Below, one piece after another: positions 46,736-62,775 of a stretch of 64,000 nt of DNA; position 1 is the first letter of the stretch; every line of letters begins with the position of its first letter. Under the pieces are notes generated by a model that did not search any database, was not told where the DNA came from, and was given only the letters and a program-made list of their open reading frames with translations. Origin of the DNA: Sinomonas atrocyanea (lineage in GTDB: Bacteria; Actinomycetota; Actinomycetes; Actinomycetales; Micrococcaceae); NCBI RefSeq assembly GCF_030811715.1, contig NZ_JAUSRH010000001.1:62001-126000 (forward strand), written 5' to 3'. The position numbers and the translations under genes are program-made.

Positions 46736-47626
46736 TCACACCTCTTCGGGACCCTGGCGGCCGTCTCCCGCCAGGACCACGGACGCCTCAACTGAACGGT
46801 CCGTGACCGTGGTAGGGCTCTCGAGGTGCACGGCCTGGGACGGAATGATGCCGGCACCGCCGTACCGCTCCATGACCCGCCACTGCGCCACGACATCCTC
46901 GCCGGCGTGGGCAGGCGGAAGGTCGCGCCAGAACCGGAATCCGCCGCATTCCTCGAGGGCCTCCCGCCGGTACAGCACGCATCCGCCGACCCAGGCCACG
47001 CGGTACGGGAGCCACTCCCCCGCACGCAGTCGGCCCGTACGGCGCAGCTCGGCCGCGAGATGGGCCAGATTCGCCGCGTTGTGCAGGCTCCACCGCTCGA
47101 ACCCCGGAGCCCCGCGCTCCATCCGCTCGGGCCGCACCGGCCCATCCCACAGCGAGAACGACTCGACCTCCTCCGGGCGCGGGTCGTCGAGGTAGGAGAG
47201 GCCTTGGACCGCCATCCCCACGAACCCGCAGCCGAGGGTGCCGAGCGCCTCTCCCAGGGTGCGGACGGCACCGGGAGCCAGCCACACGTCGTCGTCCAGG
47301 AAGAGCACCCGCGGGGCGGTGGAGGCCTCGAGGAGGAACTGCCGATGCTCGGCCAGGCCCCTCCGAGGGTGGTGCCGGAGCGCGCGCACGGGGCGGCCCT
47401 GCGCTTCGAGCAGCCGCAGCATCGCGGCGGGCCCCTCGTACTCCCAGCCGGCCGGCCCGTCGCTCTGGTCGCTCACGACGACGCCGAAGCCGTCCGCGTC
47501 CTGGGCGGCGAGCCCGGCCAAGGTGGTCGCGAGCTCGGTGGGGCGGTTGCAGGTCGGGATGAGGACCTCGAGGAGCGGCTCGCTGTCCGGACCGGGCGCG
47601 GCCCAGTCCTCGGGCCCGCGGTTCAC
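46736..47626 (-). CDS. Glycosyltransferase family 2
   Basis: This is a 296-residue GT-A fold enzyme. It has the N-terminal VLIPTCNRPTELATTLAGLA, the DXD-like VLFLDDDVWLAPGAV, and a C-terminal acceptor segment GGCVLYRREALEECGGFRF, then AGEDVVAQWR. No membrane helix is present. GTG 47626 overlaps the hldE stop (GTGA). It is the last gene of the ALDH-like/hldE/GT2 unit; sugar and acceptor are unknown. Confidence 0.88.
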   Translation of the reverse strand: MNRGPEDWAAPGPDSEPLLEVLIPTCNRPTELATTLAGLAAQDADGFGVVVSDQSDGPAGWEYEGPAAMLRLLEAQGRPVRALRHHPRRGLAEHRQFLLEASTAPRVLFLDDDVWLAPGAVRTLGEALGTLGCGFVGMAVQGLSYLDDPRPEEVESFSLWDGPVRPERMERGAPGFERWSLHNAANLAHLAAELRRTGRLRAGEWLPYRVAWVGGCVLYRREALEECGGFRFWRDLPPAHAGEDVVAQWRVMERYGGAGIIPSQAVHLESPTTVTDRSVEASVVLAGDGRQGPEEV

Positions 47627-49074
47627 CGGTCCACCGTGCTGCCGGTCGGGCGGCTGTCGGTCGGGTGACGCTGCCCGCGCTCGGTCCAGCCCAGAGTCTC
47701 GAGGCGTCCGCCGACGGCCTCCACGGCACCCGCCTCGGCCAGCATGCCCGGAAGGTAGTCGCCGCCCTTGACGTACACGTCCGGGGCGAGGGCCTCGATG
47801 AGCGGAACCGCCGTCTCGGAGTCGAAGACGAGGGCATGGTCCACGGACGCGAGGGCCGCGACGACGGCGGCCCTGTCGCCCTCCGCGGTCAACGGCGGGG
47901 CGCCGTGGAGGCGGTGCGCGGACTGATCGGAGTTGACGCCGACCACGAGGAGGCCGCCCATCCGTGCCGCCTCCTCGAGGAAGGCGGTGTGGCCGCGGTG
48001 GAGCCCATCGAACACCCCGTTGGTGAGGACCACCGTCTGCCCGGCGGCCCGGGCCGCGGCCACGGCCTCGCGGGCGGCCTCGAGGGTGCTGACCTGACGG
48101 GCCGGTTCGCGGCGGAGGGCGGCGGCCAGGCGCTCCCCCGTGCACGTGCTCGTCCCCGGGAGGCCGACGACGACATCCGCGGCGGCCTGCCCGACGTCAG
48201 CGGCAGCCTCGACGGGCAGGCCCAGTGCAAGGGCGTAGGCGAGTCCGGCCACGAAGGTGTCCCCGGCTCCGACCGCGTTCTGCTCGGGGGCCGGGCGGGC
48301 CGCAGTCGCGTGCACGCTCCCGGGCCGCCCCAGGAGCACCGTCCCGTCCCGGTCGAGGGTCACGAGCGTGTGTGCGGCGCCGGTCGCCGACCCGAGCTCG
48401 CGCGCATGGCCCTCGGCCCAGGCTCGGCGGTCTCCGTGGGGCGTCGGCTCGCCGAGGAGATCGGCCGCTTCCTGGGCGTTGGGGGTGGCGACGTCGGCCC
48501 TGAGGCTGGCCCAGTCGTGGAAGCGCCGGGCGTCCACCACGAGCGCATGGGCTCCGCGGCGGATCGCGGCGCGGTCCAGCGCCGCGAGCGCGCCGAGGCC
48601 GTAGTCGCATACGACGACGGCGTCGGCCCAGGCCAGCGCGGCGAGCGAGCGGTCCGAGACCTCGCGGGCCTCGGCCTGGTCCGCAGGCCGGCACGAGTCC
48701 ACCCGCAGGAGCAGCTGGCCGCCGGCGAGCATCCGGGACTTCACCGACGTGGAGCGGCCGGCACGCCGCACGAGCGTTCCCTCGGTGCTGATCCCCGCCC
48801 GATCCAGGCACGCGGCGAGCGCGGCGCCAGGTTCGTCGTCGCCCGCTACCCCGGCGAGCACCACCTCGGCGCCGAGCGCGGCGAGGTTCATTGCGGTGTT
48901 CCCGGCTCCTCCCGGCGCGTCCACGACGCGGGCCACGTCCAGCACAGGGACGGGCCCCTCGCGGCAGAGCCTTTCGGCGCCGCCCTCGCACCAGCGGTCG
49001 AGGAGCACGTCCCCGAGCACGAGGATCTTGGGCCGGCGGCGGCCCAGGGCGGTGAGGATCTCAGCGGCGTCCAC
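47623..49074 (-). CDS. hldE: Bifunctional heptose 7-phosphate kinase / heptose 1-phosphate adenylyltransferase (copy 1)
   Basis: This is a 483-residue two-domain enzyme. The N-terminal PfkB kinase domain has GGAGNTAMNLAALGAEV and the catalytic NAVGAGDTFVAG. The C-terminal cytidylyltransferase-like domain has TNGVFDGLHRGH, VVGVNSD and DVYVKGGDY. It phosphorylates D-glycero-beta-D-manno-heptose 7-phosphate at C1 and later adenylates heptose 1-phosphate, giving ADP-heptose. GTG start at 49074. A second copy is at 55585. Confidence 0.93.
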   Translation of the reverse strand: MDAAEILTALGRRRPKILVLGDVLLDRWCEGGAERLCREGPVPVLDVARVVDAPGGAGNTAMNLAALGAEVVLAGVAGDDEPGAALAACLDRAGISTEGTLVRRAGRSTSVKSRMLAGGQLLLRVDSCRPADQAEAREVSDRSLAALAWADAVVVCDYGLGALAALDRAAIRRGAHALVVDARRFHDWASLRADVATPNAQEAADLLGEPTPHGDRRAWAEGHARELGSATGAAHTLVTLDRDGTVLLGRPGSVHATAARPAPEQNAVGAGDTFVAGLAYALALGLPVEAAADVGQAAADVVVGLPGTSTCTGERLAAALRREPARQVSTLEAAREAVAAARAAGQTVVLTNGVFDGLHRGHTAFLEEAARMGGLLVVGVNSDQSAHRLHGAPPLTAEGDRAAVVAALASVDHALVFDSETAVPLIEALAPDVYVKGGDYLPGMLAEAGAVEAVGGRLETLGWTERGQRHPTDSRPTGSTVDR

Positions 49075-49075
49075 C

Positions 49076-50566
49076 TCAGATCACCAGCCCTGGCCCGGGC
49101 CGGGAGACCACGGGCGGCTCGAGGTGGATCACCTTGGGGCGGCTGAGCTCGTCGAGCAGACGCGGGCCGAACCCCACGGGACTGCCGGTCTGCGGCAGGC
49201 CGGGCGCATCGGTCCCCGTGGCCCCCTGCGCGACGCCGTTCACCACGACGGTGCCGACCGGCAGCTCGGCCGCGGCGATCTGGGCGTGGGCGATGTCCCG
49301 GGTGAGCACGGTTGCGGATGCGCCGCAGGGGCAGTGGGCGGCCTCGGCGATCGCCTCGCCGAAGCTTCCTACCCGGATGACTGCGGCCACGGGACCGCGG
49401 ACCTCCTCGGTGAAGCCCTCGAGGGTGGCGGCGGGGCCGCTGAGGATGGTCGGCGGGTAGTAGGAACCGGGCCCGTCGGGGACGGCGCCGCCGGCGAGGC
49501 GGAGGGCGCCGCGGTCCATGGCGTCGGCGACTGCGCGGTGGACGTCCTCCCGCGCGCCGGCGTCGACGAGCGGACCGAGCCGGTCGCCCCCGGACCATTG
49601 GAGGGCCTGGTCGGCGAAGGCCGCGAGGAAGTCCTCGGCCATGTCCTCGAGCACGTAGATCCGGCTTGCGGCGGAGCGCAGCTGGCCTGCGTGCCGGAAG
49701 GCCGCCTCCGCCGCGCACGAGGCGGCCCAGCCGGGATCCACCTCTCGGTCCACGATGAAGACGCCGTTGCCGGGCCGACCGCGGACCAGATGGGCGCCGG
49801 TGCTGCACGCCAGGCCGGCCAGGCTGTCCGCCACCTCCGAGGAGCCGAGGTGGACGATCGCGTCGACGCGTCCGTCCGCGGCGAGGGCCGCGCCCACGGC
49901 GCCGCTGCCGGTCACGGTGCCGATCACCCCGGCGGGGACCGCGGAGGCGAAGAGGCGGCCGAGGCGCCGGCCCAGCGCTGGGCAGCGGCCACTCGGCTTG
50001 AGGACCACGGCGTTGCCCGCGGCCAGGGACGCCCCGACGACCGCGCAGGACACGGCTACGGGGTCGTCCCAGGACGTCAGCCCGAGCACGACTCCGCGGG
50101 GCTCGAAGACGGTGAAGTCGAGCCCGGAGAAGGCTCCGGCGAGGCTCGGGCCCGAGCGAAGCAGGCCAAGCTCCGCGAAGCGGCGCAGGGCCTCGGCTCC
50201 CGAGCGAACCCCCTCCAATGCGTCGTCGAAGAGGCGGCCTGTCTCCCGGGAGTTCAGGTCGGCGAGCTCGTGGGCCGCCGACTCGACGGCTGCGGCGATC
50301 TCACGCAGCGCTGTGGAGCGTTCCGCCTGGGGCGTGCGTCGCCACAGCGCTGACGCCCGGCGAGCCGATTGGAGTGCGCTCTCGGCCCGCTGCGCGTCGG
50401 GCGCGGCCAGCGCCTCCGCCCCCGTGTCCGGTCCGGGGGTGGCTCCTCCTGCTGTGTCCGCTCCTCCTGCTGTGTCCGCTCCGGCCGCGTCCGTTCCGGC
50501 TCCGTGTTCTCCTGATGGGTGCGGCGCACCCGCGTAGTCTGCCTCGTCCGGCAGGACAGCGCTCAT
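49076..50566 (-). CDS. Aldehyde-dehydrogenase-fold protein lacking catalytic residues
   Basis: This is a 496-residue member of the ALDH superfamily by overall pattern: LKPSGRCPALGRRLGRL, VHLGSSEVADSLAGLA, EEVRGPVAAVIRV, ASATVLTRDIAHA. The catalytic cysteine position reads HAGQLRSAASR (Cys replaced by Arg), and the general-base Glu of the ELGG motif is missing (HLVRGRPGNG). It is therefore probably not an active dehydrogenase. ATG 50566 follows AGGAGG. It lies upstream of hldE in the same direction, so it may act as a scaffold or cofactor-binding regulator. Confidence 0.82.
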   Translation of the reverse strand: MSAVLPDEADYAGAPHPSGEHGAGTDAAGADTAGGADTAGGATPGPDTGAEALAAPDAQRAESALQSARRASALWRRTPQAERSTALREIAAAVESAAHELADLNSRETGRLFDDALEGVRSGAEALRRFAELGLLRSGPSLAGAFSGLDFTVFEPRGVVLGLTSWDDPVAVSCAVVGASLAAGNAVVLKPSGRCPALGRRLGRLFASAVPAGVIGTVTGSGAVGAALAADGRVDAIVHLGSSEVADSLAGLACSTGAHLVRGRPGNGVFIVDREVDPGWAASCAAEAAFRHAGQLRSAASRIYVLEDMAEDFLAAFADQALQWSGGDRLGPLVDAGAREDVHRAVADAMDRGALRLAGGAVPDGPGSYYPPTILSGPAATLEGFTEEVRGPVAAVIRVGSFGEAIAEAAHCPCGASATVLTRDIAHAQIAAAELPVGTVVVNGVAQGATGTDAPGLPQTGSPVGFGPRLLDELSRPKVIHLEPPVVSRPGPGLVI

Positions 50567-50709
50567 GTCGACCTCCTGTACAGCTTCTCTCGGCCTACTA
50601 CCCCTGCCTTTCGCTCCCAAGCGGCCCCTTCCGGGGACTTCTCCGGGCGCGTTTGCACCCGGGCCGCGGGGGTAGCGGATCCGCACGGCGCTGTCTGCGG
50701 CGGCGCCGA

Positions 50710-50751
50710 CGATCGATCGGGACGAGCCGGCGATCGATCGGGACGAGCCGG
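50710..50751. repeat. Two perfect 21-bp tandem repeats in a divergent promoter region
   Basis: Two adjacent identical 21-bp units, each with the palindromic core CGATCGATCG, lie between the ALDH-like gene and the divergent GT9 gene. Two helical turns apart, they could be operator sites. Confidence 0.7.
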
Positions 50752-50808: not shown

Positions 50809-51924
50809 ATGATGGCGCGAGCCGCCCACGGTGAGGACGGGCCCTTCGACGGGGTGGAGCGGATCGCGGTGCTCCGCGGCGGCGGGATCGGGGATCTGCT
50901 CTCCGCCCTCCCCGCGCTGGAGGCCCTGTCGGAGACCTACCGGCCCACGCACCTGACCCTGCTGACGACGCCGCTCCTGGCGGCGCTGCTCCAGGACCGG
51001 CCGGGTCCGTGGGACCGCGTGGCCGTGGTCCCGACCTTCCCTGAGGCCCCGGACGCGTCGGGGCGCACCTGGCGGGATGACCCGCGTACGGGCGAGCTCG
51101 TCTCGGCCCTGCAGGCCGAGCGGATCGGGCTCGCCGCTCAGCTGCACGGCGGCGGCAAGAACTCGAACCCGTTCGTCCTCGCCCTCGGCGCCGCCCATAC
51201 GGTCGGCTGCTCGACCCCGGATGCAGACCCGCTCGAGCGCCAGCTCGCACACGTCTACTATCAGCGCGAGGTGGACCGCTGGCTCGAGGTTGCCGCTCTC
51301 GCCGGGGCCGAGACGAGCCACCTCGAACCGCGGCTCACTGCGGTCCCCGCAGACGCCGAGGCTGCCGCACCCTGGGTGCAGGCCGAGGCGAGGGGCCTCG
51401 TCGTCGTCCATCCCGGGGCGACCGATCCTCGGCGCCGCTGGCCGGCGCCCCGTTTTGCCCGTGTGGCGGCGGCGCTCGCAGACGAGGGCTGGCAGGTGCT
51501 CGTGGTGGGCGATCCGGGAGAGCGTGACCTCGCCGAAGGGATCGCGCACGACGCCGCGGGGGCGGCTCCCAGCGCTGCGCACCTGATCGGGTCGGCGGCT
51601 GGGCGGACGGACTTGCACGGGCTGGTGGGCCTGCTCGACGCGGCGCGGCTCGTGGTCGCCAATGACAGCGGTCCGCGGCACCTCGCGCAGGCGCTCGGGA
51701 CCCCGACTGCGTCCGTCTACTGGGGGCCCAATCTGGTCAATGCCGGGCCGCGCCAGCGGAGGATGCACCGAGTCCAGATTTCCTGGCGCCAGCTGTGTCC
51801 GGTGTGCGGGGCGGATGGCACCGACCCGTTCGGCAGGTCCTGCGATCACTCCGAACCGTGGGTCTCCGACGTGCCCGTCGAGGGTGTGCTTGCCGATGCC
51901 CGAGCCCTCCTCGCCGGGCGGTAG
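50809..51924 (+). CDS. Glycosyltransferase family 9 (heptosyltransferase-like)
   Basis: This is a 371-residue GT9 protein. N-terminal IAVLRGGGIGDLLSALPALE and C-terminal VVHPGATDPRRRWPAPRFAR, then VANDSGPRHLAQALGTPTAS, are the donor-binding motifs of ADP-heptose transferases. A Cys-containing segment (WRQLCPVCGADGTDPFGRSC) resembles a small metal-binding motif not typical of WaaC/WaaF. AAGGAGG precedes ATG 50809/50812. It is one of three GT9 genes in the window. Confidence 0.9.
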   Translation: MMARAAHGEDGPFDGVERIAVLRGGGIGDLLSALPALEALSETYRPTHLTLLTTPLLAALLQDRPGPWDRVAVVPTFPEAPDASGRTWRDDPRTGELVSALQAERIGLAAQLHGGGKNSNPFVLALGAAHTVGCSTPDADPLERQLAHVYYQREVDRWLEVAALAGAETSHLEPRLTAVPADAEAAAPWVQAEARGLVVVHPGATDPRRRWPAPRFARVAAALADEGWQVLVVGDPGERDLAEGIAHDAAGAAPSAAHLIGSAAGRTDLHGLVGLLDAARLVVANDSGPRHLAQALGTPTASVYWGPNLVNAGPRQRRMHRVQISWRQLCPVCGADGTDPFGRSCDHSEPWVSDVPVEGVLADARALLAGR

Positions 51925-51957: not shown

Positions 51958-53721
51958 CTAGAAGGGTGGGGGTGGGTCGTGGTGGGGGTAGGTGGTGTAG
52001 GGCAGTCCTGCTGGTGAGGTCCAGTGGAGGGTGCCCGGTGGTGTGAGGGGTCTGGGTGGGCCCGGTGCCTTGGGGCTGGGTGTCTTGGGGGTGGGTGCTG
52101 GTGGGCTGTGCGGGGCGTTGTGGCTCTGGGCGGGCGGGGTGGGCTGGGCGGTATCCGCCTGGGTGAGGGTCCAGTGGCGTTGTGTTTTGAGGTGGTGGTG
52201 TTCGCGGCAGAGGAGGGCGAGGTTGGCTACGGCGGTGTGGCCGCCGGTGTGCCATTCGGTGGTGTGGTCGGCCTCGGTGGTGGGGGCGGGGCGGTCGCAG
52301 CCGGGGAAGCGGCAGGTCGCGTCGCGGGCGCCGAGGTAGCGGCGCATGGCGGCGGTGGGGGTGTAGCGGGCGCGGCCGATGGCCAGGGGCGCCCCGGTGG
52401 CGGGGTCTGCCCACAGGCGGGTCCAGGTGGCGGCCTGGGCGGCGAGGAGGCGGGCCGCGCCGGGGTCGATGGGGCCGTAGCCGAGCAGTTCGGCCGGGGT
52501 GTCGGCGGTGCCGGCGGCGGTCGCGGCCGGCAGGACGAGGACGACCTCGCACCGCACCCCCGACCCCGCAGCACCCGCAACACCCGCAGGCCCCCCATGA
52601 CCCGCAGGGCCCGCGGGCCCGGGAGACCCGGCGGGCCCGATGGGCTGTGGGGTGGGGTTGTCGGGGAGGGTGTGGGCGGTGGTGAGGAGGTCGGCGAGGG
52701 CGTCGGCGCGCAGCTGCGGGAGGGTGCGGGCCTCGTCGGGGCCCTGGAGGGAGCGGGCGATGGCCTCGAGGCGGGTGTCGACCGCGGCCCCGTGTTCCAG
52801 GGGCAGGTAGGCGGTGAGCCAGCACATCCCGTCCGGGGCGGGGTCGAGGTCGACCCGGCGGCCGCCGGCGGCGTGGGCCCTGCGCACGGTCAGGGGTTCC
52901 TCGGCGTGGTCCTCGACGAGGCGGCGCAGGCGCCGGGTGAGCGCCGCGGGGGACAAGGTCCGGTCGGGGTCGGCGGGGCAGGCGGCCTCGGTGGCGGCGG
53001 CCAGGAAGGCCGCCGCGCGGGCCGGGGGGACGGGGACGGCGGCGTCCAGGACGGCCCTGGCCCGGCGGCGGGAGAGCCGCCCGGAGGCGAGCGCTGCCAG
53101 GACGGGGGCGGCGGCGGGGTCGGTCAGGGACAGGGCCTCGCTGACCAGGCCCTTGGCGGTGCGGGCGGAGACCTTCAGGGCCGCGGATACCTCCGAGGCC
53201 GCGACCGTGGCCGCCTCCGCGGTGCGGAGGGGGTCGGTCCCGTCGCCGGCGCAGAGGTCCACGAGCGCGCCCAGGACGGCGGCCTGCTCGGCCAGGCGGG
53301 CGGCCTCGAGCTGCTCGAGGCGGACCAGACGGCGCACGAGCCCGGCCGCGGCCACCTCCCGCAGCTCCGCCCGCACCACCGGGGCGGGGAAGACCTCGAG
53401 CTCCTCCGGGGAGGCGAACAGCCCCGCATCCACCCCGCTGTCCCACGGACCCGACCCGCCGCCCGAGGGACCCACGCCCGAACGGCAGACCCCGCCGCGC
53501 TCCAGAGCCGAGGCGGCGAGCTCGCGGTCCGGGGCTCCGCGGAACGCCGCCCAGAGCACCGGCCCCAGCTCCTCGGCGCCGGCCCCCTGCGGCCTGGCCC
53601 GGTCATTGAGCTCCCACTCCAGCCGCAGCCACTCCGGCGGCTCCGGCGGTACCCAGGCAGACGACGCGCCGGCACCGGGAGGCCCTTCCGCCCCCGCTGC
53701 CAGACCACCGTCTCGTTCCAT
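51958..53721 (-). CDS. 13E12-repeat family protein (DUF222 plus HNH endonuclease)
   Basis: This is a 587-residue protein. The DUF222 domain covers most of the first 400 residues (LVDLCAGDGTDPLRTAEAAT, SPAALTRRLRRLVEDHAEEP) and an HNH nuclease domain follows (CRFPGCDRPAPTTEADHTTE, NLALLCREHHHLKT), then a Pro-rich tail. These proteins occur in many copies in Micrococcaceae and mycobacteria and behave like mobile or domesticated homing nucleases. It interrupts the glycosyl region. The upstream 80 bp are strikingly AT-rich. Confidence 0.92.
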   Translation of the reverse strand: MERDGGLAAGAEGPPGAGASSAWVPPEPPEWLRLEWELNDRARPQGAGAEELGPVLWAAFRGAPDRELAASALERGGVCRSGVGPSGGGSGPWDSGVDAGLFASPEELEVFPAPVVRAELREVAAAGLVRRLVRLEQLEAARLAEQAAVLGALVDLCAGDGTDPLRTAEAATVAASEVSAALKVSARTAKGLVSEALSLTDPAAAPVLAALASGRLSRRRARAVLDAAVPVPPARAAAFLAAATEAACPADPDRTLSPAALTRRLRRLVEDHAEEPLTVRRAHAAGGRRVDLDPAPDGMCWLTAYLPLEHGAAVDTRLEAIARSLQGPDEARTLPQLRADALADLLTTAHTLPDNPTPQPIGPAGSPGPAGPAGHGGPAGVAGAAGSGVRCEVVLVLPAATAAGTADTPAELLGYGPIDPGAARLLAAQAATWTRLWADPATGAPLAIGRARYTPTAAMRRYLGARDATCRFPGCDRPAPTTEADHTTEWHTGGHTAVANLALLCREHHHLKTQRHWTLTQADTAQPTPPAQSHNAPHSPPAPTPKTPSPKAPGPPRPLTPPGTLHWTSPAGLPYTTYPHHDPPPPF

Positions 53722-53804: not shown

Positions 53805-54772
53805 TCACAGTCCTTCGTAGCTCTGCCCGTGGGGACCGGCGAGCCCGCGAGGACGCCCGTTCACCGCGACGACCGTCCTCCCTCGGGCGGGCGTGACGAG
53901 GTCCCCACCAACGGTGGGCAGGACGCGCTCGCCCTCGTTGCTGATCCAGGTGACTCCTGGCAGCGAATGCATCAGCTCAATGAATTGGGCCCGCCGAACC
54001 CGGTCGAGGTAGACGAGCGCGGAGCTGTGGAAGACCACCACGTGCGCACCGGGCGGGGCCTCCTCCACGAGCCCCGTGATGCTGTCCACGAGGTCGCCGC
54101 GCAGGATCCTCGGGGGATCCGCTGCCGCGGCTGCCGCTGCGGCGCGGAGACGATCACGGCGGTCCTGGTGTTCGGGCCAGATGAGCGTCTCGAGCCACTC
54201 CATCTCGGATGCGTCGCCGACGTCGAGCGGATTCAGGTCGATGCCGCAACGCGCCACACGACCTCGGGCAGCCGCGCAGGGACGCTCCCCGCATCGATGC
54301 GGCAGGGCAGCTCAACGGCGCTCGCCCCAGTGGCGGGATCGAGGGACACGGTGCGGTCGCCGAGGTCGTAGCGGTAGCTGTACCTGTCCGGATAGAGGCA
54401 CAGTCCCGCGGAGGCGCCGGCCTCAATGAGCGCCAGCGGCCCCTCCAAGCGGCTCAGCACCGGGAGGAGGACCGCGCACCGGCCCGCCTCGTTGGTCTGC
54501 GTGGACCGCGTCAGGACCACGGGCTCCACCGTGGCCCAGTGGGACAGCAGCCACGAGCGGAACCCGGAGTAGGGCCCCACCGGCGCCCCCCGCAGACGGG
54601 CCGCCGCGAAGACGAGGTTGGGCTGCCGCTTGGCTTGCGGGAGAGACTCGAGGAGTCCGACGACGGCGGCATCCTCCGCGATGGAGCTCGCCCAATCGAA
54701 GAAGACGTCGGACACCCCTTGCGCCTCGACCTCGGCGAAGGCCCGGTAGACCTCGGCGGTCCCGTTCTGCAT
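53805..54772 (-). pseudogene. DUF2332 family protein, broken by a frameshift
   Basis: Residues 1-175 (from ATG 54772: FAEVEAQGVSDVFFDWASSI, then SYRYDLGDR) and the last 150 residues (CGIDLNPLDVGDASEMEWLE to SNEGERVLP) form one DUF2332 protein, but in different frames. The join is near 54250, where CGCG stands instead of CG: the first frame ends VVWRVAAST and the other continues RCGIDLNP. A 2-bp insertion, or a sequencing error, explains it. Confidence 0.85.
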
Positions 54773-54791
54773 GGACCCAATCTATGCCGGC

Positions 54792-55532
54792 CTACGGCCA
54801 GGAATCCTCCATGGAACCTGCCACGAGCAGCTCGCGGACCTCGCAGCCCCGCGGCTGCGAGAGGGCGAAGATCACCGATCGGGCCACGTCCGAGGGCCGG
54901 TTGAGGGTGCTGCGGTCATGGGGCTTGTACTCCTCGGGCCGGTCATCGAAGAAGGCCGTGTCCATGCCGCCGGGGATGAGCGTCGTGACGCCCACCCTGC
55001 CCTTGAGCTCAGCGGCCAGGGCCCTGCTGAAGCCGATCACGCCGAACTTGGAGGCGCAGTAGGCCGTGGCGCCCGCCGCCCCGCGGAGGCCGAGGGTCGA
55101 CGCGACCGTCACCACCCGGCCGTGCGACTCGAGCAGATGCGGAACGGCGGCGCGCACCACGGCGGCAGTCCCGAGGAGGTTCACGCGCAGCACGCGTTCC
55201 CACTCATCCGCGGGCACCTCCGCCAGCTCGCCGCAGCGGTCGATGCCCGCGGCGCACACCACCGCATCGAGCCCGCCCGCCTCTTCGACGGCGCGGGCGA
55301 CGGCGGCCTCCGCCTCCTCGCGCACGGAGAGGTCCGCGACCACGCCGGTCACGCCTTCGGGGGCAGGCTGCCGGTCGACGACGATCGGCCGGGCGCCCTG
55401 CCCGGCGGCGGCTTCGACGATGGCAGCGCCCAGCCCCGAGGCTCCTCCCGTCACGAGGATTCGCGCCCCGCGCAGGGGCTCCTGGGCGGACTGGTCGGTC
55501 TCGTGGCTGATGCTCGTATCCGTGGTGGTCAT
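54792..55532 (-). CDS. Short-chain dehydrogenase/reductase
   Basis: This 246-residue classical SDR has the NAD(P)-binding TGGASGLGAAIVE near residue 30, NNAG-like VCAAGID, catalytic Ser in VASTLG and YCASK (Tyr/Lys). It is last in the heptose operon, 52 bp after hldE copy 2. It is too short for the HldD epimerase (extended SDR of about 310 residues), so a sugar-modifying reductase is possible but the substrate is unknown. Confidence 0.9.
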   Translation of the reverse strand: MTTTDTSISHETDQSAQEPLRGARILVTGGASGLGAAIVEAAAGQGARPIVVDRQPAPEGVTGVVADLSVREEAEAAVARAVEEAGGLDAVVCAAGIDRCGELAEVPADEWERVLRVNLLGTAAVVRAAVPHLLESHGRVVTVASTLGLRGAAGATAYCASKFGVIGFSRALAAELKGRVGVTTLIPGGMDTAFFDDRPEEYKPHDRSTLNRPSDVARSVIFALSQPRGCEVRELLVAGSMEDSWP

Positions 55533-55584: not shown

Positions 55585-56994
55585 TCAGCCGAGCCCCGCG
55601 ATCGCGGAGGCGAGGCCCGTCGTCGACCGTCCCGGCTCGAGCGGCACGGTCACGACGTCGCCGCCCCACCTCCGCAGGAGCGAGGTCTCGGGCAGCTGCT
55701 CGGCGTCGTAGTCGGCGCCCTTGACCCAGACGTCGGGCCGGAGCTCGTTGAGCAGCTGCTCCGGAGTGTCCTCGGAGAAGACCTCGACGGCATCCACGCA
55801 GCTGAGCCCGAGGAGCAGGTCCACCCTGTCGGCCTGGGACATGAGCGGGCGGGAGTCGCCCTTGAGGCGCCGGATCGACTCGTCGGAGTTGAGGCACACG
55901 ATGAGGCAGTCGCCGAGGCCGCGGGCGGCCTCGAGGAGGCGGAGATGGCCCGCGTGCAGGAGGTCGAAGCAGCCGCCCGCGGCGACCACCCGGCCGCCGG
56001 TGGACTGGATGCGCCGGGCGAGGGCGAAGGCCGCACTCTCCTCCGGCTCGCCCTCCCCCGCGGACAGCGCCTTGGAGCTGTCCCCGGACGCCGCGGGAGG
56101 CAGGGGCGCCTGGCTGCGCTCGAGCGAGGAGACGCCGCCTGCGCCGAGGAACTCCACCGCCCCGGAGATGGCGGCCTCGACCGCCTTCTCAAGTCCGTGG
56201 CCGGCGCCGAGCGCGACGGCAAGCGAGGCGGCGAACCGGTCCCCCGCACCGCACGAGTCCTCGATCCTCAGCCCGGCCGCGGGGGCCGCGATGTGGGTGT
56301 CGGTCTCGGATCCGCAGATGAGGGCGCCCCGTTCGGCGAGGGTGACGACCACCGAGTGCGCGTTCCAGCGCTCCCTCAGCCGCCCCGCCGCGGTCGCGAC
56401 AGCGCCGAGCCCGTTGACCGCACGCCCGGAGAATGCGAGCAGCTCGGGCAGGTTCGGGGTCACGGCGGCGGCCCTCGAGACGGGCCGGGCACCCTGGGGG
56501 TGCGGGTCCCACACCACGGGGACGTGCCGGGCCGCCGATTCGATCGCCGCCCGGAGGGTGGGGGCTTCCGCGAGCCGCCGGCCGTAGTCGGCGACGACGA
56601 TGGCGTCAGCGCCGGCGATCCGCTCGAGCATGGCCTCGTCGACGAGCGGGAACGGCTTCTGGCCACAGCCCTCGTCGATCCGCGCGACCCGCTGGCCGTC
56701 CGCGATGACCCGCATCTTGACCGGCGTCGGGCCGCCGAGCGCGCCGGCCGTCACCCGCACCCCGCTGAGCAGGGCGCGAAGCCGTGCCGCCGCGGGGTCA
56801 ATCGAGAGGGCGGTGACGAGGTCGACGTCGTGCCCGTCCTCCGCGAGCATCGTCGCCACGAGCCCCGCCCCGCCCGCGCGCTCGAGGCGGCGGGCCACCT
56901 CGACGATGGGCGCCGGCGCGTCCGGGCAGAGGCGGCTCGCGTGGCCGTGCAGGTCGATGTCCATGAGGGTGTCTCCCACCACGGCAATTCTCAT
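55585..56994 (-). CDS. hldE: Bifunctional heptose 7-phosphate kinase / heptose 1-phosphate adenylyltransferase (copy 2)
   Basis: This is a 469-residue HldE paralog. The kinase half has the Gly-rich ERAGGAGLVATMLAEDGHDV and the catalytic DSCGAGDRFAASLA; the transferase half has AAGGCFDLLHAGHLRLLEAA, CLNSDES and DVWVKGADY. Sequence differs widely from copy 1 at 47623, so they are not a recent duplication. ATG 56994 overlaps the gmhA stop. This copy sits in an operon with gmhA and gmhB and is the likely housekeeping heptose enzyme. Confidence 0.94.
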   Translation of the reverse strand: MRIAVVGDTLMDIDLHGHASRLCPDAPAPIVEVARRLERAGGAGLVATMLAEDGHDVDLVTALSIDPAAARLRALLSGVRVTAGALGGPTPVKMRVIADGQRVARIDEGCGQKPFPLVDEAMLERIAGADAIVVADYGRRLAEAPTLRAAIESAARHVPVVWDPHPQGARPVSRAAAVTPNLPELLAFSGRAVNGLGAVATAAGRLRERWNAHSVVVTLAERGALICGSETDTHIAAPAAGLRIEDSCGAGDRFAASLAVALGAGHGLEKAVEAAISGAVEFLGAGGVSSLERSQAPLPPAASGDSSKALSAGEGEPEESAAFALARRIQSTGGRVVAAGGCFDLLHAGHLRLLEAARGLGDCLIVCLNSDESIRRLKGDSRPLMSQADRVDLLLGLSCVDAVEVFSEDTPEQLLNELRPDVWVKGADYDAEQLPETSLLRRWGGDVVTVPLEPGRSTTGLASAIAGLG

Positions 56995-57752
56995 CGGGGG
57001 TCCCTTCCTGGGGCGCTTCGGCCGGACCGGGGCTGCGGCGCCGGGAGGTCTGCGATGCACGCGTCGAAGCACACGCACAGCGCATGGATCGCCACAAGCT
57101 GGGACTCCTGGACGTGGCAGTTCCTCCCGTCGAGGAGCACGGCCTCGTCCACGGCGGAGGAGAGCGGGTTCGGTCCCGGGCCCGTCATGGCCCAGCTCAC
57201 CGCCCCGACTTCCCGCGCCGCCGCGGCCGCGCAGAGGAGATTGGGGCTCTTCCCGGACGTGGAGAGGAGCACCACGACGTCGCCTTCGCGAGCGTGGGCC
57301 CGGATCTGCCGGGCGAAGACCTCGTCGTAGCCGTAGTCGTTCCCGATCGCCGTCATCGCGGAGGTGTCCCCGTGGAGGGCGATCGCCGAGAACGGGGCCC
57401 GCTCGCCGTCGTACCTCCCCACGAGCTCGGCCGTGAGGTGCTGGGCCTCGGCCGCCGAGCCGCCGTTGCCGGCCACGAGGAGCCTGCCGCCCTGGGAGAG
57501 CCGATGGGCGAGATCGTGCCCCCACCGGGCGAGCACGAGGGAGTGGCGCTCGAGCACCTCGAGGGCCACCATCGATTCCGCGATATGGGCGGCCACCGTG
57601 CGTGCGAGCGCAGCGGTGGGGTCGCTGCCGGCCCGGGCGCGCTGGGCGGCGGAGCGGAAGGCGCCGCTCGCGGCGCCGGGTACGGGCCGCAGGGCCGCGC
57701 GGGAGCGGGGCGCAGTCCGGGCGGCGTCCAGTCCTCGGTGAGCTGCACACAT
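56991..57752 (-). CDS. gmhA: Phosphoheptose isomerase GmhA (SIS domain)
   Basis: This is a 253-residue SIS-domain protein. It carries VAGNGGSAAEAQHLTAELVG and LLSTSGKSPNLLCAAAAARE, the sugar-phosphate binding loops of GmhA, which converts sedoheptulose 7-phosphate to D-glycero-D-manno-heptose 7-phosphate. About 60 residues at the N-terminus are extra compared with GmhA of about 190-200 residues. ATG 57752 is preceded by GGAGGG; a later start is possible. Confidence 0.9.
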   Translation of the reverse strand: MCAAHRGLDAARTAPRSRAALRPVPGAASGAFRSAAQRARAGSDPTAALARTVAAHIAESMVALEVLERHSLVLARWGHDLAHRLSQGGRLLVAGNGGSAAEAQHLTAELVGRYDGERAPFSAIALHGDTSAMTAIGNDYGYDEVFARQIRAHAREGDVVVLLSTSGKSPNLLCAAAAAREVGAVSWAMTGPGPNPLSSAVDEAVLLDGRNCHVQESQLVAIHALCVCFDACIADLPAPQPRSGRSAPGRDPR

Positions 57753-57754
57753 CC

Positions 57755-59041
57755 TCAGGCTCCCTCCTCGACGCGGCGCAGCCTGCGCCGGGACCGGAGG
57801 ACATCCGGCTCGGGCTGCTGCCAGTGCTCGCGCACCACCCGATAGATGCGCTCGGTGTCCGATGCCACCTTGTCCCACGTGTAGCGGCTCCGCGCGCGCT
57901 CGACCCCGGCCGCGCCGAGGGCGGCGCGCCGCTGCGGATCGTCCGCGAGGGCGGCGACCGCGTCTGCGAGGGCCTCGGGGTCCTTGGGCGGGATGTGGAG
58001 ACCGGTGACGCCGTCGACCGTGGTCTCGGCGAGGCCGCCCACGGCCGCCACGATGGTGGGGACGCCGCAGGCCATCGCCTCGAGCGGCACGATGCCGAAG
58101 GGCTCGTACCAGGGGCAGCAGACCACAGCATCGAGGCTGCGCATGAGCTGGGGCATGGCATCGCGGGCGACCTGGCCCGTGAAGATGATCTGGCTGCCGA
58201 TCCCGAGGGAGTCGGCGAGGTCCCGCAGGCGCCGCGCCTCCGGATCGCCGGCGACGCGCTCCTTCTCCACGGAGCCGCCGACCACGAGGAGCTCGATGTC
58301 CCTGCGCCCCGACGCGGCGAGGAGGGCGAGCGCACGGATCACGGTGTCCACGCCCTTGCGCGGCACGAGGCGGCCGATCGTGGCGATCCGGAACCGCTTT
58401 CCCCGTGCTCGGGCAGGGCCGTCCGGTGTGAAGAGCGCCGTGTCCACGCCGCACGGCGCAATCGAGATGTGCCGGCGGCTCACCCCCATGGTGCGCAGCT
58501 CGAACGCCTCGTCAGGGCAGGTGGCGATGACGCGGTCCACCGAACGGGCGACCCACGGCTCGAGGGTCTCGCGTTCGGGAGGACTCGTGTCCTCGACTCC
58601 CTGGTGCCGGCGCTTGACCACGCCCAGGGCGTGGAAGGTCTCCGCCACGACCGGCGGCGTCAGCCCCAGGCGCTGCACCTTGTCCGCAGCCTCGATGCAG
58701 GCGACTCCGGACATCCAGAAGTGCCCGTGCACGACGTCCGGCGTGTCCTGCGCCCAGTACTCGCTGATCCGGTCCGCGAATTCGGGGATGAAGGGCAGGA
58801 GCTTGTCCTTGGGAACGGCGCGCGGAGGCCCGGCGTCGACGTTGACGAGGCCCACGCCGGTGGGGAGCATCTGCTCCCAGTGGAGCCTGTTGCTGTCACG
58901 GCGGGTGAACACCGTGACCGCGTGCCCGCGGCGGACGAGCGCCGCGGAGAGCTCAGCGACATGCACGTTCTGCCCTCCCGCGTCCTCGCCTCCGATGACG
59001 GCGAGCGGGCTCGCGTGCTCCGAGACCATGGCGATCTTCAT
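57755..59041 (-). CDS. Glycosyltransferase family 4
   Basis: This is a 428-residue GT-B enzyme. The N-terminal acceptor domain starts MKIAMVSEHASPLAVIGGED with the GGQNVHVAEL loop, and the C-terminal donor domain has IGRLVPRKGVDTVIRALALL and the EPFGIVPLEAMACGVP motif. It resembles the sucrose-phosphate-synthase-like GT4 proteins of actinobacteria. AAAGGAG precedes ATG 59041. It is located two bases upstream of gmhA in the heptose operon. Confidence 0.92.
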   Translation of the reverse strand: MKIAMVSEHASPLAVIGGEDAGGQNVHVAELSAALVRRGHAVTVFTRRDSNRLHWEQMLPTGVGLVNVDAGPPRAVPKDKLLPFIPEFADRISEYWAQDTPDVVHGHFWMSGVACIEAADKVQRLGLTPPVVAETFHALGVVKRRHQGVEDTSPPERETLEPWVARSVDRVIATCPDEAFELRTMGVSRRHISIAPCGVDTALFTPDGPARARGKRFRIATIGRLVPRKGVDTVIRALALLAASGRRDIELLVVGGSVEKERVAGDPEARRLRDLADSLGIGSQIIFTGQVARDAMPQLMRSLDAVVCCPWYEPFGIVPLEAMACGVPTIVAAVGGLAETTVDGVTGLHIPPKDPEALADAVAALADDPQRRAALGAAGVERARSRYTWDKVASDTERIYRVVREHWQQPEPDVLRSRRRLRRVEEGA

Positions 59042-60042
59042 CGTTGTGCTCCTTTCAGCGTGCTCGCGCCGCGGACACCTTTCGCGGCCTCTGCGAGCAC
59101 CTCGTCCCACGCGGCGTGGAACCGATGCAGCCCGTAGCGGGCCAGGGCGGCCTCGCGGGCGTTGAGCCCTGCCTCGACGGCCTCGTCCGGGCGGGTGAGC
59201 ATCCGGCGCGCGGCGGCGAGGAGTTCCTTAGGGTCGGAGCTGACGCAGCCCGCCCCGGGGGGCACGGCCCGCCACGCCTCCGTGGAGCCCACTACGAGCA
59301 CCGGAAGTCCGAGGAACATGGCCTCGATGAGGGCGAGCCCCAGAGAGGTCCAGCGGAAGGGGTGGAGGTAGGCCCGGCGGCGTGCGAGCTCGGCGTGCAG
59401 CGTCCCGGAGGGCAGGTCCCCGGCCCAGACGAGGCGGTCCGGGCCGACCCCGGTGGCCTCCTCCAGGCCGCCGCCGCCCATGCCGAAGACATCGATGGGC
59501 GCTGCTTCCGAGAAGGTGGGCAGCAGGTCCGTGCCGGCGACCCGGCGGCGCCGGACGGGCTCGTTCACGGCCGCCCCGAGCCTCTCGAGTTCTCCCGTGT
59601 AGGCCAAGCCGGGGTCGTTCACCCCGTGCTCGACCACGAAGACGGGGGCGCTGCCGCTGTCCCACATCAGCGCGTTGAAGTGGGTCACGTGCACGATCGG
59701 GATGTCCGCCTGGTCGGCGAGGGGATGCCGGGTCTCCGGGACGGAGCCCTTGGGCGTGTTGTGCTCGACGAACACCGCGGGGACGTCGATTCCGGGCCGC
59801 AGCCCCGTCAGGGACTGGACCAGCCCGATCTCCTCGGTGCGCTGGAGCACGACGACGTCGATCTCGCCTCCGCGGGCCGAGAGCTCCTCGGCTGTGGCCT
59901 CCACGGCGCGCGGCCACGGCCTGCCCGCGAGGCCGAGCCCCCAGGGCCCCCGCTCGGGGTCCACGGGCACCACGTACTCGTGCGGGCCGCGGACGAAGCC
60001 GTCCATCCAACCGCCGTGGACGTGCCACACCAGGACGCGCAT
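59038..60042 (-). CDS. Glycosyltransferase-like protein (GT-B fold)
   Basis: This is a 334-residue protein starting MRVLVWHVHGGWMDGFVRGP. A central HNTPKGSVPETRH and a C-terminal donor-domain pattern (LHPFRWTSLGLALIEAMFLG, then LPVLVVGSTEAW) indicate a GT4-like transferase. It overlaps both neighbours (ATGA/TGATG). Sugar donor is unknown; proximity suggests an ADP-heptose or related step. Confidence 0.83.
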   Translation of the reverse strand: MRVLVWHVHGGWMDGFVRGPHEYVVPVDPERGPWGLGLAGRPWPRAVEATAEELSARGGEIDVVVLQRTEEIGLVQSLTGLRPGIDVPAVFVEHNTPKGSVPETRHPLADQADIPIVHVTHFNALMWDSGSAPVFVVEHGVNDPGLAYTGELERLGAAVNEPVRRRRVAGTDLLPTFSEAAPIDVFGMGGGGLEEATGVGPDRLVWAGDLPSGTLHAELARRRAYLHPFRWTSLGLALIEAMFLGLPVLVVGSTEAWRAVPPGAGCVSSDPKELLAAARRMLTRPDEAVEAGLNAREAALARYGLHRFHAAWDEVLAEAAKGVRGASTLKGAQR

Positions 60043-61067
60043 CAGGCCACCGCCCCGGTCTGCGCGGTGAGGAGATCCTGCACGGCCTCGACGACCTGCT
60101 CGGCACGCACGCCGGCCAGGCACGGATGGCCCGGGATCGGGCAGATGCGGGCACGGCTGCCTGCGCACGGCGCCGTCTGGTCGCCGAGGAGGACGGTGGG
60201 CGCCCCCCGGGGCCGCCATACCTCGGCAGGCACCACGGGGGCGAAGAGGCTCACCACGGGGGTCCGGACGGCGGCCGCGAGGTGCGCGGGGCCGGTATTG
60301 CCGGCCACGACCACGCTCGCGCCCGCGAGCACGTCGACGAGGCCGGGCAGGCCCGTGCGGCCGCCGAGGTCGACGCCGCGGGAGCCCGCCACGCGGGCGG
60401 TCAGCGCGCGCTCGTCCGGCCCGCCCGTGACCAGCACGCGCAGGCCCGCGGCGGCGAGCAGTTCGACCAGCGCCGCGGCGTTCTCGGCCGGCCAGGACCG
60501 CGCGGGCGCGTCCGCGCCCGGGTGCACCACGACGTAGGGGCCCTCGGGCCGGATGCCGCTGCGGTGCTGCGTCACGAGGGCCGGCAGACCGTCGTCGTCC
60601 GCCGGAAGCGGGAAGCCCGCTGCAGCCGCGATGCCGAGCGCCCGGTCCACCTCATGGGTGTTCCAGGGGAGCTCGCTGGAGGTCACCCGCACATCGAGCA
60701 GGGAGCCGGGGTAGTCCTCCGAGAGCGCCGTGATCCGGGGGACCCCGCAGAGCCGGAGTTCAAGGGCAAGGGGCAGGGGGGACTGGTGGAAGGACGTGAA
60801 GATGACGGCCTCGTCCGGGACGATGTCCGAGACCAGCCGCTCGAGCCTGCGGAGGTGGCGCGGGGTTGCCTCGGGCGCCGGGTTGCCGATCCACGGACAG
60901 TCCCATTCCCGCGTGTGGCGCACCTCGGGAAGCAGGCGGGCGGCGCCGCTTCCGCGCGGTCCGGTGAGCAGGTAGGGCTCCGCGTGGGCGGCGATCGCCC
61001 GGACGGCGGGGCCGGCCATGACGACGTCTCCGAGGCTGTCGAGCCGGACAACGAGGACGCGCCTCAT
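60042..61067 (-). CDS. Glycosyltransferase family 9 (ADP-heptose transferase-like)
   Basis: This is a 341-residue GT9 enzyme. VLVVRLDSLGDVVMAGPAVR at the N-terminus, VVVHPGADAPARSWPAENAA and VVAGNTGPAHLAAAVRTPVV are the family motifs. A CAGSRARICPIPGHPCL segment near the C-terminus contains three cysteines. The start overlaps the gmhB stop, so the precursor phosphatase and transferase are coupled. Confidence 0.92.
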   Translation of the reverse strand: MRRVLVVRLDSLGDVVMAGPAVRAIAAHAEPYLLTGPRGSGAARLLPEVRHTREWDCPWIGNPAPEATPRHLRRLERLVSDIVPDEAVIFTSFHQSPLPLALELRLCGVPRITALSEDYPGSLLDVRVTSSELPWNTHEVDRALGIAAAAGFPLPADDDGLPALVTQHRSGIRPEGPYVVVHPGADAPARSWPAENAAALVELLAAAGLRVLVTGGPDERALTARVAGSRGVDLGGRTGLPGLVDVLAGASVVVAGNTGPAHLAAAVRTPVVSLFAPVVPAEVWRPRGAPTVLLGDQTAPCAGSRARICPIPGHPCLAGVRAEQVVEAVQDLLTAQTGAVA

Positions 61068-61669
61068 GCTGCACTCCCGAGGGACGGGGCCTCGCCGCCG
61101 GACCCTGTGCTGTGCACGGGCTCGGGCCCGAGCGCGAGCATGACCGCAGAGGAGAGGTCTCCGGCGACCGCGGGCGCCGCGAGGATCTCGGGACGCAGGG
61201 TCACGGGGGTGGGCACCAGGATGCCGCGCGCGCCGGCTCGGCGGGCTGCCTCCATGTCCTTGCCGATGTCCCCGATGACCACGACGTCCTCGGGCTCGAC
61301 CTCGAGGTCCCGGCACGCGGCGTGCACGAGGCCCGGCTTGGGCTTGCGGCACTCGCAGCGGTCCTCGGGAGCGTGCGGGCAGACCTGCCAGGTGTCGAAC
61401 GGCCCGAGGATCCTCTCGATGCGGTCGTTGACGGCCCGGAGCTCGCGCTCGGTGATGAGCCCGAGGCCGACGCCGGACTGGTTGGTCACGACCCCGCAGG
61501 CGATCCCGAGGGCGCGGAGCCGGCCGAGCGTCTGCAGCGCTCCCGGCATCGGAACCACCAGATCGGGGTCCGTGTTGTAGGGCACGTCGGCGACGAGCGT
61601 GCCGTCGCGGTCGAAGAGGATCGCAGACGGCACAGGCCGCTGCTTCCTCTCGCCATTGGTCTTCCTCAT
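61064..61669 (-). CDS. gmhB: D-glycero-D-manno-heptose 1,7-bisphosphate 7-phosphatase GmhB (HAD-IIIA)
   Basis: This is a 201-residue HAD phosphatase. The catalytic motif AILFDRDGTLVADVPY, motif II VVTNQSGVG, the zinc ribbon CPHAPEDRCECRKPKPG and motif IV VIGDIGKDMEAAR are all present, and length is normal. It removes the C7 phosphate between the two HldE steps. ATG 61669 gives this length; no strong Shine-Dalgarno is seen. It is the first gene of the seven-gene heptose operon. Confidence 0.92.
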   Translation of the reverse strand: MRKTNGERKQRPVPSAILFDRDGTLVADVPYNTDPDLVVPMPGALQTLGRLRALGIACGVVTNQSGVGLGLITERELRAVNDRIERILGPFDTWQVCPHAPEDRCECRKPKPGLVHAACRDLEVEPEDVVVIGDIGKDMEAARRAGARGILVPTPVTLRPEILAAPAVAGDLSSAVMLALGPEPVHSTGSGGEAPSLGSAA

Positions 61670-61797
61670 AGGAGAAGCAGTGCCCTTGCAGCAGTACACT
61701 AAACGGAACTGCAAGGACTTCTTCTCCTCCTTCTCCTTCCCTCGAATTCGCTCAAGCCGCGGGCGTACCGTCACATCCCCACACTCAGGGAGCAGCC
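61670..61797. promoter_or_regulatory. Divergent promoter region of gmhB operon and GT9 gene
   Basis: 128 bp, lower in GC than its surroundings, with a polypyrimidine tract on the plus strand around 61708-61735. It must carry promoters for both directions, but no convincing -35/-10 pair could be assigned. Confidence 0.45.
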
Positions 61798-62775
61798 GTG
61801 GCACAGCGCGCAACGAAGCCGACCGTCCTCGCCCTCCGGGCACTCAAACTGGGCGACCTCCTTGTCGCCGTCCCGGCCCTCCGGGGCCTCCGTCGGGCTT
61901 TCCCCGACCACGAGCTTGTCCTCGCCGCACCACGCTGGCTCGCACCGATCGTCCCCCTCATCGGCGGCATCAACGCGCTCCTGCCCACTCCTGGCCTCGA
62001 TCGCCCGCTGGCCTGGCGCCGTCCCGTGGATGTGGCCGTCAACCTGCACGGCAATGGCCCCGAGAGCAGGGGCCGGCTCGAGGCGCTGAAGCCCACCTAC
62101 CGGATCGGCCACGCGGCACCGGGCTGGGCCGGGCCCGAATGGGACGACTTCCTCCATGAGCGTGACCGCTGGGTGCGCCTGCTGACATGGAACGGCATCG
62201 TGGCCGACTCCTCCGACTTCCGCCTCTGCCCGCCCGAGACGCCGGCGCCGGTGGACCGCGCGACGATCCTCCACGTCGGCGCCGCGTACGGCAGCCGGCG
62301 CTGGCCCATCGAGCGGTTCGCGGACGTCGCAGCCGTGCTCGCCCTCCGCGGCCATCAGGTGATGGTCACCGGCGGGCCGGACGACGTCTTCCGCGCCTCC
62401 GCAGTGGTCAAGGCCGCCGGGCTGCATGCCTCGGCCTGCGTGGCCGGACGCTGGGAGCTCGACCAGTTCGCCGCCGCGATCGCTGCGGCGCGGGCCGTGG
62501 TCACCGCCGACACGTCGGCGGCCCATCTGGCCACGGCCTACGGCACGCCGTCGGTGGTCATCTTCGGGCCCGCGGCCCCAGAGCAGTGGGGGCCTCCCGC
62601 CGAGGGACCGCACGTGGTCCTCACGGACCCTCTCGTACGCCTGGGCGACCCGTTCGCCGAAGACCCCGACCCGGCGCTGCTCGCCGTCCTGCCTGGCCAC
62701 GTCCTCGACGCGTTGGACGGGCTGGAGGAGGACGACGCCGCCGGCCGGGAGGGCGGCGAGGTCGCCTTCACGTAG
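61798..62775 (+). CDS. Glycosyltransferase family 9 (ADP-heptose transferase-like)
   Basis: This is a 325-residue GT9 enzyme. VLALRALKLGDLLVAVPALR, the Asn-Leu-His acceptor segment (DVAVNLHGNGPES), HVGAAYGSRRWPIERFADVA and VVTADTSAAHLATAYGTPSV are the donor and acceptor loops. GTG 61798 follows AGGGAG. It faces the gmhB operon divergently and ends before a strong bidirectional terminator. Confidence 0.92.
   Translation: MAQRATKPTVLALRALKLGDLLVAVPALRGLRRAFPDHELVLAAPRWLAPIVPLIGGINALLPTPGLDRPLAWRRPVDVAVNLHGNGPESRGRLEALKPTYRIGHAAPGWAGPEWDDFLHERDRWVRLLTWNGIVADSSDFRLCPPETPAPVDRATILHVGAAYGSRRWPIERFADVAAVLALRGHQVMVTGGPDDVFRASAVVKAAGLHASACVAGRWELDQFAAAIAAARAVVTADTSAAHLATAYGTPSVVIFGPAAPEQWGPPAEGPHVVLTDPLVRLGDPFAEDPDPALLAVLPGHVLDALDGLEEDDAAGREGGEVAFT

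Follow-up and report, generated by a model that had tools for sequence, protein, structure and literature searches.

Here, we propose that a group of genes at 46.7-62.8 kb of a 64-kb stretch of DNA (the window) on contig 1 of a 4.23 Mb Sinomonas genome (Micrococcaceae) is the Sinomonas variant of the actinobacterial cwg cluster, in which a heptose activated by a nucleoside diphosphate (NDP-heptose) is made and built into a cell-envelope glycan. We consider this reading likely, with appreciable room for doubt. The cluster itself is real and intact; it is of a kind known by name rather than by product, and it is present here in a variant form. The proposal draws on gene content, gene order, conservation, sequence motifs and the match to cwg, all of which were directly observed.

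The cwg (“cell wall glycan”) operon of Streptomyces was named in 2002. In the excerpted text of its sources it spans SCO6179-6190, with SCO6186 (cwgH) labelled a phosphoheptose isomerase and SCO6187 (cwgI) a bifunctional synthase/transferase (PMC5839063), and it is vancomycin-induced and partly sigma-E-dependent in S. coelicolor (PMC6767563; a further paper, PMC11005364, merely cites the cwg work). The promoter sequence (Table 1 of PMC6767563) and its 147-base distance to the start codon are printed, and we searched for this promoter in 246 genomes of the genus to which genome G428 belongs. It was found with at most two mismatches in five genomes and exactly in G871 only, where it ends 147 bases 5' of a start codon, equal to the printed distance. 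A row of 12 genes follows: epimerase/dehydratase, carbamoyltransferase, GT2, GmhB, GT9b, GT4b, GT4a, GmhA, HldE2, GT9c, GT2 and GT2. This row agrees with the cwgH and cwgI labels in the excerpts of PMC5839063, and a divergent polysaccharide deacetylase (locus L122, 17407-18231) lies at the place expected of the deacetylase SCO6178. We infer that G871 is S. coelicolor or a close relative. The exact promoter, the 147-base spacing and the 12-gene row thus identify the Sinomonas core as cwgD-cwgJ, with the counterparts in the same order. In the window, GmhB, GT9, GT4, GT4, GmhA and HldE stand in line with a second GT9 nearby, and the window GmhA compares with the G871 gene at 59%. The label “dehydratase” given to cwgD in the same excerpts is taken here as a HisB-type annotation; the position is held by a GmhB-like phosphatase.

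An earlier note on this DNA had described an ADP-heptose pathway, with glycosyltransferases (GTs) that could use its product, in a Gram-positive bacterium without HldD, and the gene content supports an NDP-heptose pathway with dedicated GTs. GmhA, GmhB, two HldE-family proteins, three GT9 proteins and three other GTs (two GT4 and one GT2) are present by Pfam and NCBIfam (the NCBIfam scan covered all but the GT2 and the aldehyde dehydrogenase, ALDH; Table 1). The genes were correctly named in that note, although it omitted a short-chain dehydrogenase (SDR) and the ALDH, and two genes inside the stretch (HNH/DUF222 and DUF2332) are bystanders. General domain models are the only ones that pass: all heptose-specific NCBIfam models score below their curated cut-offs, the closest being the adenylyltransferase domain of HldE2 at 180.7 versus 181.5 bits. 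The active-site motifs of GmhA and GmhB are present, as is an N-terminal Asp in each GT9, and we presume that these have their usual functional meaning. The three GT9 genes are the only PF01075 matches in the whole genome (E <= 0.001). The genes of the minus-strand row GmhB-GT9b-GT4b-GT4a-GmhA-HldE2 (61669 to 55585) are separated by -4, -1, -4, 2 and -4 bases, with the SDR 52 bases beyond HldE2 on the same strand. A second minus-strand row, ALDH-HldE1-GT2, spans 50566 to 46736; the genes for GT9a and GT9c are encoded on the opposite, plus strand.

The core is widespread. Defining a relative of HldE2 as a match at E <= 1e-40 to the window protein, we found one in 93 of 394 genomes of the class (46 of 138 genera) and in 69 of 245 Micrococcaceae genomes. 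This removes the rarity implied earlier, as does the correspondence of the core to an operon named in 2002. Named relatives, at 92-73% identity, are those of Sinomonas atrocyanea, S. notoginsengisoli, S. sp. R1AF57 and S. cellulolyticus, which places the genome in Sinomonas. Outside Sinomonas we compared 27 loci, made up of 20 picked from the 93 positive class genomes together with L058, L060 and L065-L069; these carry 17 different family numbers, and three further named or metagenome-assembled records possibly fall within those families. GT9b and HldE2 are found in all 27 loci, GmhB, GT4a and GT4b in 26 each, GmhA in 25 and GT9c in 23, so that the seven-gene core recurs in at least 17 actinomycete families and includes Nonomuraea pusilla (L067) and the Streptomyces-type G871. 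Around the core, the same loci hold an SDR (22), a carbamoyltransferase and an epimerase/dehydratase (18 each), ALDH (9) and HldE1 (4). Counted by hand, the order GmhB-GT9b-GT4b-GT4a-GmhA-HldE2 is unbroken in 13 loci, carries an inserted gene in two (L068 and L114) and has moved or missing genes in 12. Open reading frames (ORFs) with at least four hydrophobic stretches number 22 across the 27 loci, and none is common to more than three; with no membrane-protein family common to four or more loci, no flippase or polymerase family is part of the cluster.

Within Sinomonas, HldE2 is found in 11 of 15 genomes. It is unbroken in the window and in eight other genomes, each of which also has GmhA, GmhB and all six GTs, whereas G002, G011 and G013 carry it in split or broken form. 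G002 is also without matches to GmhA, GT9b, GT4b, SDR and HldE1. These three genomes (L046, L053 and L055) hold either decaying clusters or split HldE genes, with an assembly error possible in G013.

Several observations weigh against the proposal. The cluster is missing from four of the 15 Sinomonas genomes and its HldE2 is damaged in three more, and thus it is dispensable. The cwg promoter is also not always followed by heptose genes: in G768, which has it with one mismatch, the one counterpart in the next 18 kb is that of GT4a, beside a GmhB trace of 40 residues, and there is no match to HldE, GmhA or GT9 (L123, 2080-19901). We read this stretch as a reduced or replaced cwg operon in which the heptose genes were lost or exchanged. 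Counterparts of the cwgA epimerase/dehydratase and the cwgB carbamoyltransferase were not found in the window, in 13 distinct Micrococcaceae loci (16 searched, of which 3 are duplicates), or in L065 and L066. For the carbamoyltransferase, PF16861 was not found anywhere in the Sinomonas genome either. Hence the Sinomonas product is not identical to the Streptomyces one; epimerase-like genes are present elsewhere in the genome. The Sinomonas locus also differs from cwg in its divergent GT9c and in its additional SDR, HldE1, ALDH and GT9a, and the single pattern searched gave no sigma-E-like promoter before the window GmhB. Finally, none of the papers on cwg that the literature search turned up gives a product in the excerpts, and the titles and abstract openings it covered name no heptose product of actinobacterial walls.

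The two HldE proteins are not equivalent. HldE2 has the complete motif set of a bifunctional HldE (GAGD, GxFDxLHxGH, LKGxxRP and STT), whereas in HldE1 the set is incomplete: the kinase motif GAGD and GxFDxLHxGH are retained, STT is gone from all 10 Sinomonas genomes in which the C-terminus of HldE1 can be read, and LKGxxRP has become L[HR]G in each of the 9 Sinomonas copies aligned. HldE1 from other genera keeps LKGxxRP and S-T-T in 6 of 6 cases, although with flanking letters that differ from the full (F/L)xxGxSTT pattern. Since both motifs are lost in every readable Sinomonas copy, HldE1 is probably a kinase only, its nucleotidyltransferase half having lost activity, and the earlier claim that both copies make ADP-heptose lacks support. 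In the same 10 genomes HldE2 carries L[EQA]PGRSTT, and the window copy, LEPGRSTT, fits (F/L)XXGRSTT; at the level of this motif, which HldE1 lacks, HldE2 resembles the STTR5 heptose nucleotidyltransferases. STTR5 is described as a hallmark of CTP and UTP use that allows ADP-, CDP- and UDP-heptose to be made (Tang et al. 2024, as told in the excerpts of PMC11573728 and PMC11461863). HldE2 would therefore probably supply ADP-heptose and, judging from STTR5, CDP- or UDP-heptose too.

A maximum-likelihood tree of 15 HldE1 and 37 HldE2 sequences splits the two completely (support 100/100), and as HldE1 reaches Pseudonocardia the pair is old. The stem leading to Sinomonas HldE1 is 0.95 long, and that to Sinomonas HldE2 0.48. 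We considered whether HldE1 is a decaying gene and ruled this out, because among nine Sinomonas copies its nucleotidyltransferase domain has a mean identity of 0.837 versus 0.733 for its kinase domain (0.82 and 0.743 in HldE2). The second domain of HldE1 thus appears to be non-catalytic yet constrained; alternatively, its conservation could reflect an activity of another kind. The GT2 gene behind HldE1 is retained in the Sinomonas genomes with a readable HldE1 and also in L056 and L098, and the ALDH is partial or missing in some Sinomonas loci (L052, L054 and L064).

The absence of HldD noted earlier is upheld. Nothing in the genome exceeds the TIGR02197 cut-off, with seven weaker matches, and across the 394 genomes of the class, with at most five candidates scored per genome, no protein is above the cut-off or at E <= 1e-70; the controls, E. 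coli and Caulobacter, were positive. As HldD is absent as a rule across the class, its absence says nothing special of the Sinomonas genome. This leaves two options: D-glycero-heptose is used unchanged, or another enzyme epimerises it. A hidden HldD elsewhere in the genome was rejected, the best match (L009) reaching only 138.5 bits, under the cut-off; its neighbours, judged from reading rather than a domain scan, look like the oxidoreductase and aminotransferase of a different sugar pathway. The SDR is likewise rejected as an HldD homologue: it is a classical SDR, its closest solved relatives being hydroxyacyl-CoA dehydrogenase and FabG-like enzymes. By position and conservation it is an unproven candidate for the HldD step or for another sugar modification. 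Clustering of all ORFs placed its family in 21 of the 27 loci outside Sinomonas, although two of the resulting groups merged several families, making this a weak test of absence. Some lineages, including the Streptomyces-type L122, have no SDR at the locus, which speaks against an essential role.

In light of these findings, what might the locus do? Each enzymatic step, the sugar donor and the location in the envelope are inferred from the genes. GmhA would convert sedoheptulose 7-phosphate to heptose 7-phosphate, the HldE kinase domains would phosphorylate this to the 1,7-bisphosphate, and GmhB would remove the 7-phosphate. The nucleotide would then be loaded by HldE2, not by HldE1, to form ADP-heptose and, probably, CDP- or UDP-heptose as well. 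GT9b and GT9c of the core, along with GT9a, the two GT4 proteins and GT2, may assemble a short heptose-containing envelope glycan, which would probably help to keep the wall intact under stress, the role suggested for cwg. A wall glycan is among the options for the acceptor, just as the earlier note had it. A fuller version of the proposal would join several of these elements: a class of actinobacterial wall glycans built on D-glycero-manno-heptose (donated by ADP, CDP or UDP) and carbamoylated in many lineages, a Sinomonas HldE1 in which a kinase is joined to a dead yet conserved nucleotidyltransferase that acts on the other HldE as its partner or regulator, and a classical SDR that replaces HldD. 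Taken together, we regard this combination as possible but rather doubtful.

The same enzyme kinds make the activated sugar of the lipopolysaccharide inner core in Gram-negative bacteria (GmhA, HldE, GmhB, HldD, WaaC/WaaF), and among solved structures WaaC and WaaF come closest to the two GT9 proteins searched, GT9b and GT9c (not GT9a). Unlike that pathway, Sinomonas has no HldD above the cut-off and has additional GT4 and GT2 proteins; Gram-positive bacteria also have no lipid A or 3-deoxy-D-manno-octulosonic acid (Kdo) acceptor. Closer taxonomically is gmhD of Rhodococcus ruber YYL, which belongs to a GDP-heptose route and is linked to the capsule in the excerpts of PMC12298843. There too, a gene for heptose goes with an envelope polymer of an actinobacterium, but a guanosyltransferase acts there, versus an adenylyltransferase in an HldE-type fusion in Sinomonas, and the gene was set aside as a parallel on account of its different route (PMC12298843; PMC12786566). 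An “ADP-heptose:LPS heptosyltransferase” raised under salt in Frankia was not used, the excerpt giving no cluster context (PMC5563000).

An envelope glycan is not the only possible destination of the heptose. The earlier note placed the cluster next to flagellar genes, which raises the option that flagellin or another flagellar protein is heptosylated in the cytosol. In the window FliW, the final gene assigned to a flagellar family, ends about 6 kb before GT2, and among the 245 Micrococcaceae genomes HldE2 and FlhA (PF00771, in 82) co-occur above expectation (41 with both, 28 with HldE2 only, 41 with FlhA only and 135 with neither; Fisher p 1.7e-7, kinship ignored); the lack of a membrane-protein family shared by four or more of the 27 loci would also suit a cytosolic acceptor. 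The link is loose, however. As 28 of the 69 genomes with HldE2 have no FlhA, and 41 of the 82 with FlhA have no HldE2, the cluster is not confined to flagellated genomes, and while the association is compatible with a shared lifestyle, it does not make flagellin a needed acceptor. In the 15 Sinomonas genomes (7 with both, 4 with HldE2 only, 2 with FlhA only and 2 with neither), G004 and G012 are without FlhA yet have the whole cluster (ALDH partial in G012). Nor is the distance kept: FlhA and HldE2 are separated by about 43 kb in G000 and G013 and by megabases in G009 (a smaller gap if the contig is circular), and in the remaining four they sit on different contigs, so that the vicinity described is seen in two of the seven Sinomonas genomes with both genes. 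The core is also present in N. pusilla and G871, which presumably lack flagella. Co-occurrence and distance together lead us to reject flagellin as the main acceptor and to hold its heptosylation very unlikely.

Instead of an envelope polymer, the cluster could make a diffusible heptose-bearing natural product, as hygromycin B is. In Streptomyces fimbriatus, ADP-heptose is the source of the heptose in septacidin (excerpts of PMC11461863), the classical SDR and the ALDH could be tailoring enzymes, and no flippase- or polymerase-type membrane family is common to four or more of the 27 loci. We nonetheless consider such a product unlikely: a secondary metabolite would not usually have seven core genes recurring in at least 17 families, no gene for building an aglycone is seen among the shared families, and the Streptomyces counterpart responds to vancomycin via sigma-E (excerpts of PMC6767563). 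That the NDP-heptose is mainly stored or released as a signal, with the GTs minor, is suggested by its action as an immune agonist and its ability to accumulate in Burkholderia (excerpts of PMC11461863 and PMC11573728), but seems exceedingly improbable given that four GTs (GT9b, GT9c, GT4a and GT4b) accompany the pathway, each in 23 to 27 of the 27 loci, and that an ALPK1 agonist is of no obvious use to a soil bacterium. Lastly, the missing catalytic motifs of HldE1, the broken HldE2 of G002, G011 and G013 and the gene losses of G002 might point to a pathway that has degenerated in Sinomonas and yields nothing; this we judge highly unlikely, as HldE2 is unbroken alongside GmhA, GmhB and six GTs in the window and eight other genomes, and its domains are well conserved.

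Table 1. Genes of the heptose locus and features named beside it (window positions)
Feature	Position	Strand	Matches and remarks
FliW, last gene with a flagellar family	ends 40548		about 6 kb before GT2
GT2 glycosyltransferase	46736..47626	-	PF00535 1.8e-11; 4-base overlap with HldE1
HldE1, putative heptose-7-phosphate kinase plus nucleotidyltransferase domain without LKGxxRP and STT	47623..49074	-	PRK11316 2.2e-89 (below cut-off); PDB 4e84 4.9e-33
ALDH family, in line with HldE1	49076..50566	-	PF00171 1.7e-80
GT9a, heptosyltransferase-like	50809..51924	+	PF01075 3.8e-25
HNH/DUF222 gene, between the two rows	51958-53721		family scan
DUF2332 gene, read in two overlapping frames	53805-54772		PF10094, both parts
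SDR, classical short-chain dehydrogenase, adjoins HldE2	54792..55532	-	PF00106 3.8e-41; TGGASGLG and YCASK motifs
HldE2 (cwgI counterpart), putative kinase plus nucleotidyltransferase with LEPGRSTT (STTR5)	55585..56994	-	PRK11316 6.4e-81 (below cut-off); PDB 5x9q 4.1e-36, 4e84 2.7e-20
GmhA (cwgH counterpart), putative sedoheptulose-7-phosphate isomerase	56991..57752	-	PRK13936 3.4e-44, TIGR00441 4.4e-40 (both below cut-off)
GT4a, MshA-like (cwgG counterpart)	57755..59041	-	PF00534 7e-42; TIGR03449 8.4e-66 (below cut-off)
GT4b (cwgF counterpart)	59038..60042	-	PF13692 1.2e-6
GT9b, heptosyltransferase-like (cwgE counterpart)	60042..61067	-	PF01075 6.2e-24; PDB 2gt1 7.4e-12
GmhB (cwgD counterpart), putative heptose bisphosphate phosphatase, HAD-IIIA	61064..61669	-	PRK08942 4.8e-33 (below cut-off); TIGR01656 1.3e-33 (above cut-off); start codon possibly 61633
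GT9c, heptosyltransferase-like (cwgJ counterpart), divergent from operon	61798..62775	+	PF01075 2.1e-23; PDB 1psw 1.1e-17

Among the Sinomonas loci the HNH/DUF222 gene is near full-length in the window and in G013 only, with a short remnant in L048; it looks like a recent, mobile insertion, and on this distribution both it and the DUF2332 gene are counted as bystanders. The two parts of the latter lie in one frame in G013, so the two-frame reading in the window is probably a frame break or an assembly error. After GT9c, a gene for a sigma-70-family factor (regions 2, 3 and 4; 62914-63747) is a candidate regulator, and it has the same position in six Sinomonas stretches and in L056, L057 and L098. 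On the other side, Usp, Nramp and DUF6328 (45967-46611) genes and ORFs without a family separate FliW from GT2. Of 22 ORFs scanned between 9971 and 42070 (some small ones left out), 16 match flagellar families and none is a glycosyltransferase. A tRNA of unknown type called by ARAGORN inside flhA (13034-13130) is taken as a false match. Beside the flagellar cluster, a large protein (6153-9146) with eight LGFP repeats and a transglycosylase SLT domain is perhaps a wall-remodelling enzyme.

What makes these findings interesting is the chemistry predicted for an operon named long ago, together with the odd HldE1, rather than heptose genes in a Gram-positive as such. Reading cwg as an NDP-heptose pathway with a common set of GTs in at least 17 families yields a concrete chemical prediction, namely a heptose-containing, often carbamoylated envelope glycan in Sinomonas or Streptomyces. 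The nucleotidyltransferase domain of HldE1, without its motifs but conserved, is a small enzymological puzzle. If the prediction is true, many Gram-positive bacteria may make ALPK1 agonists.

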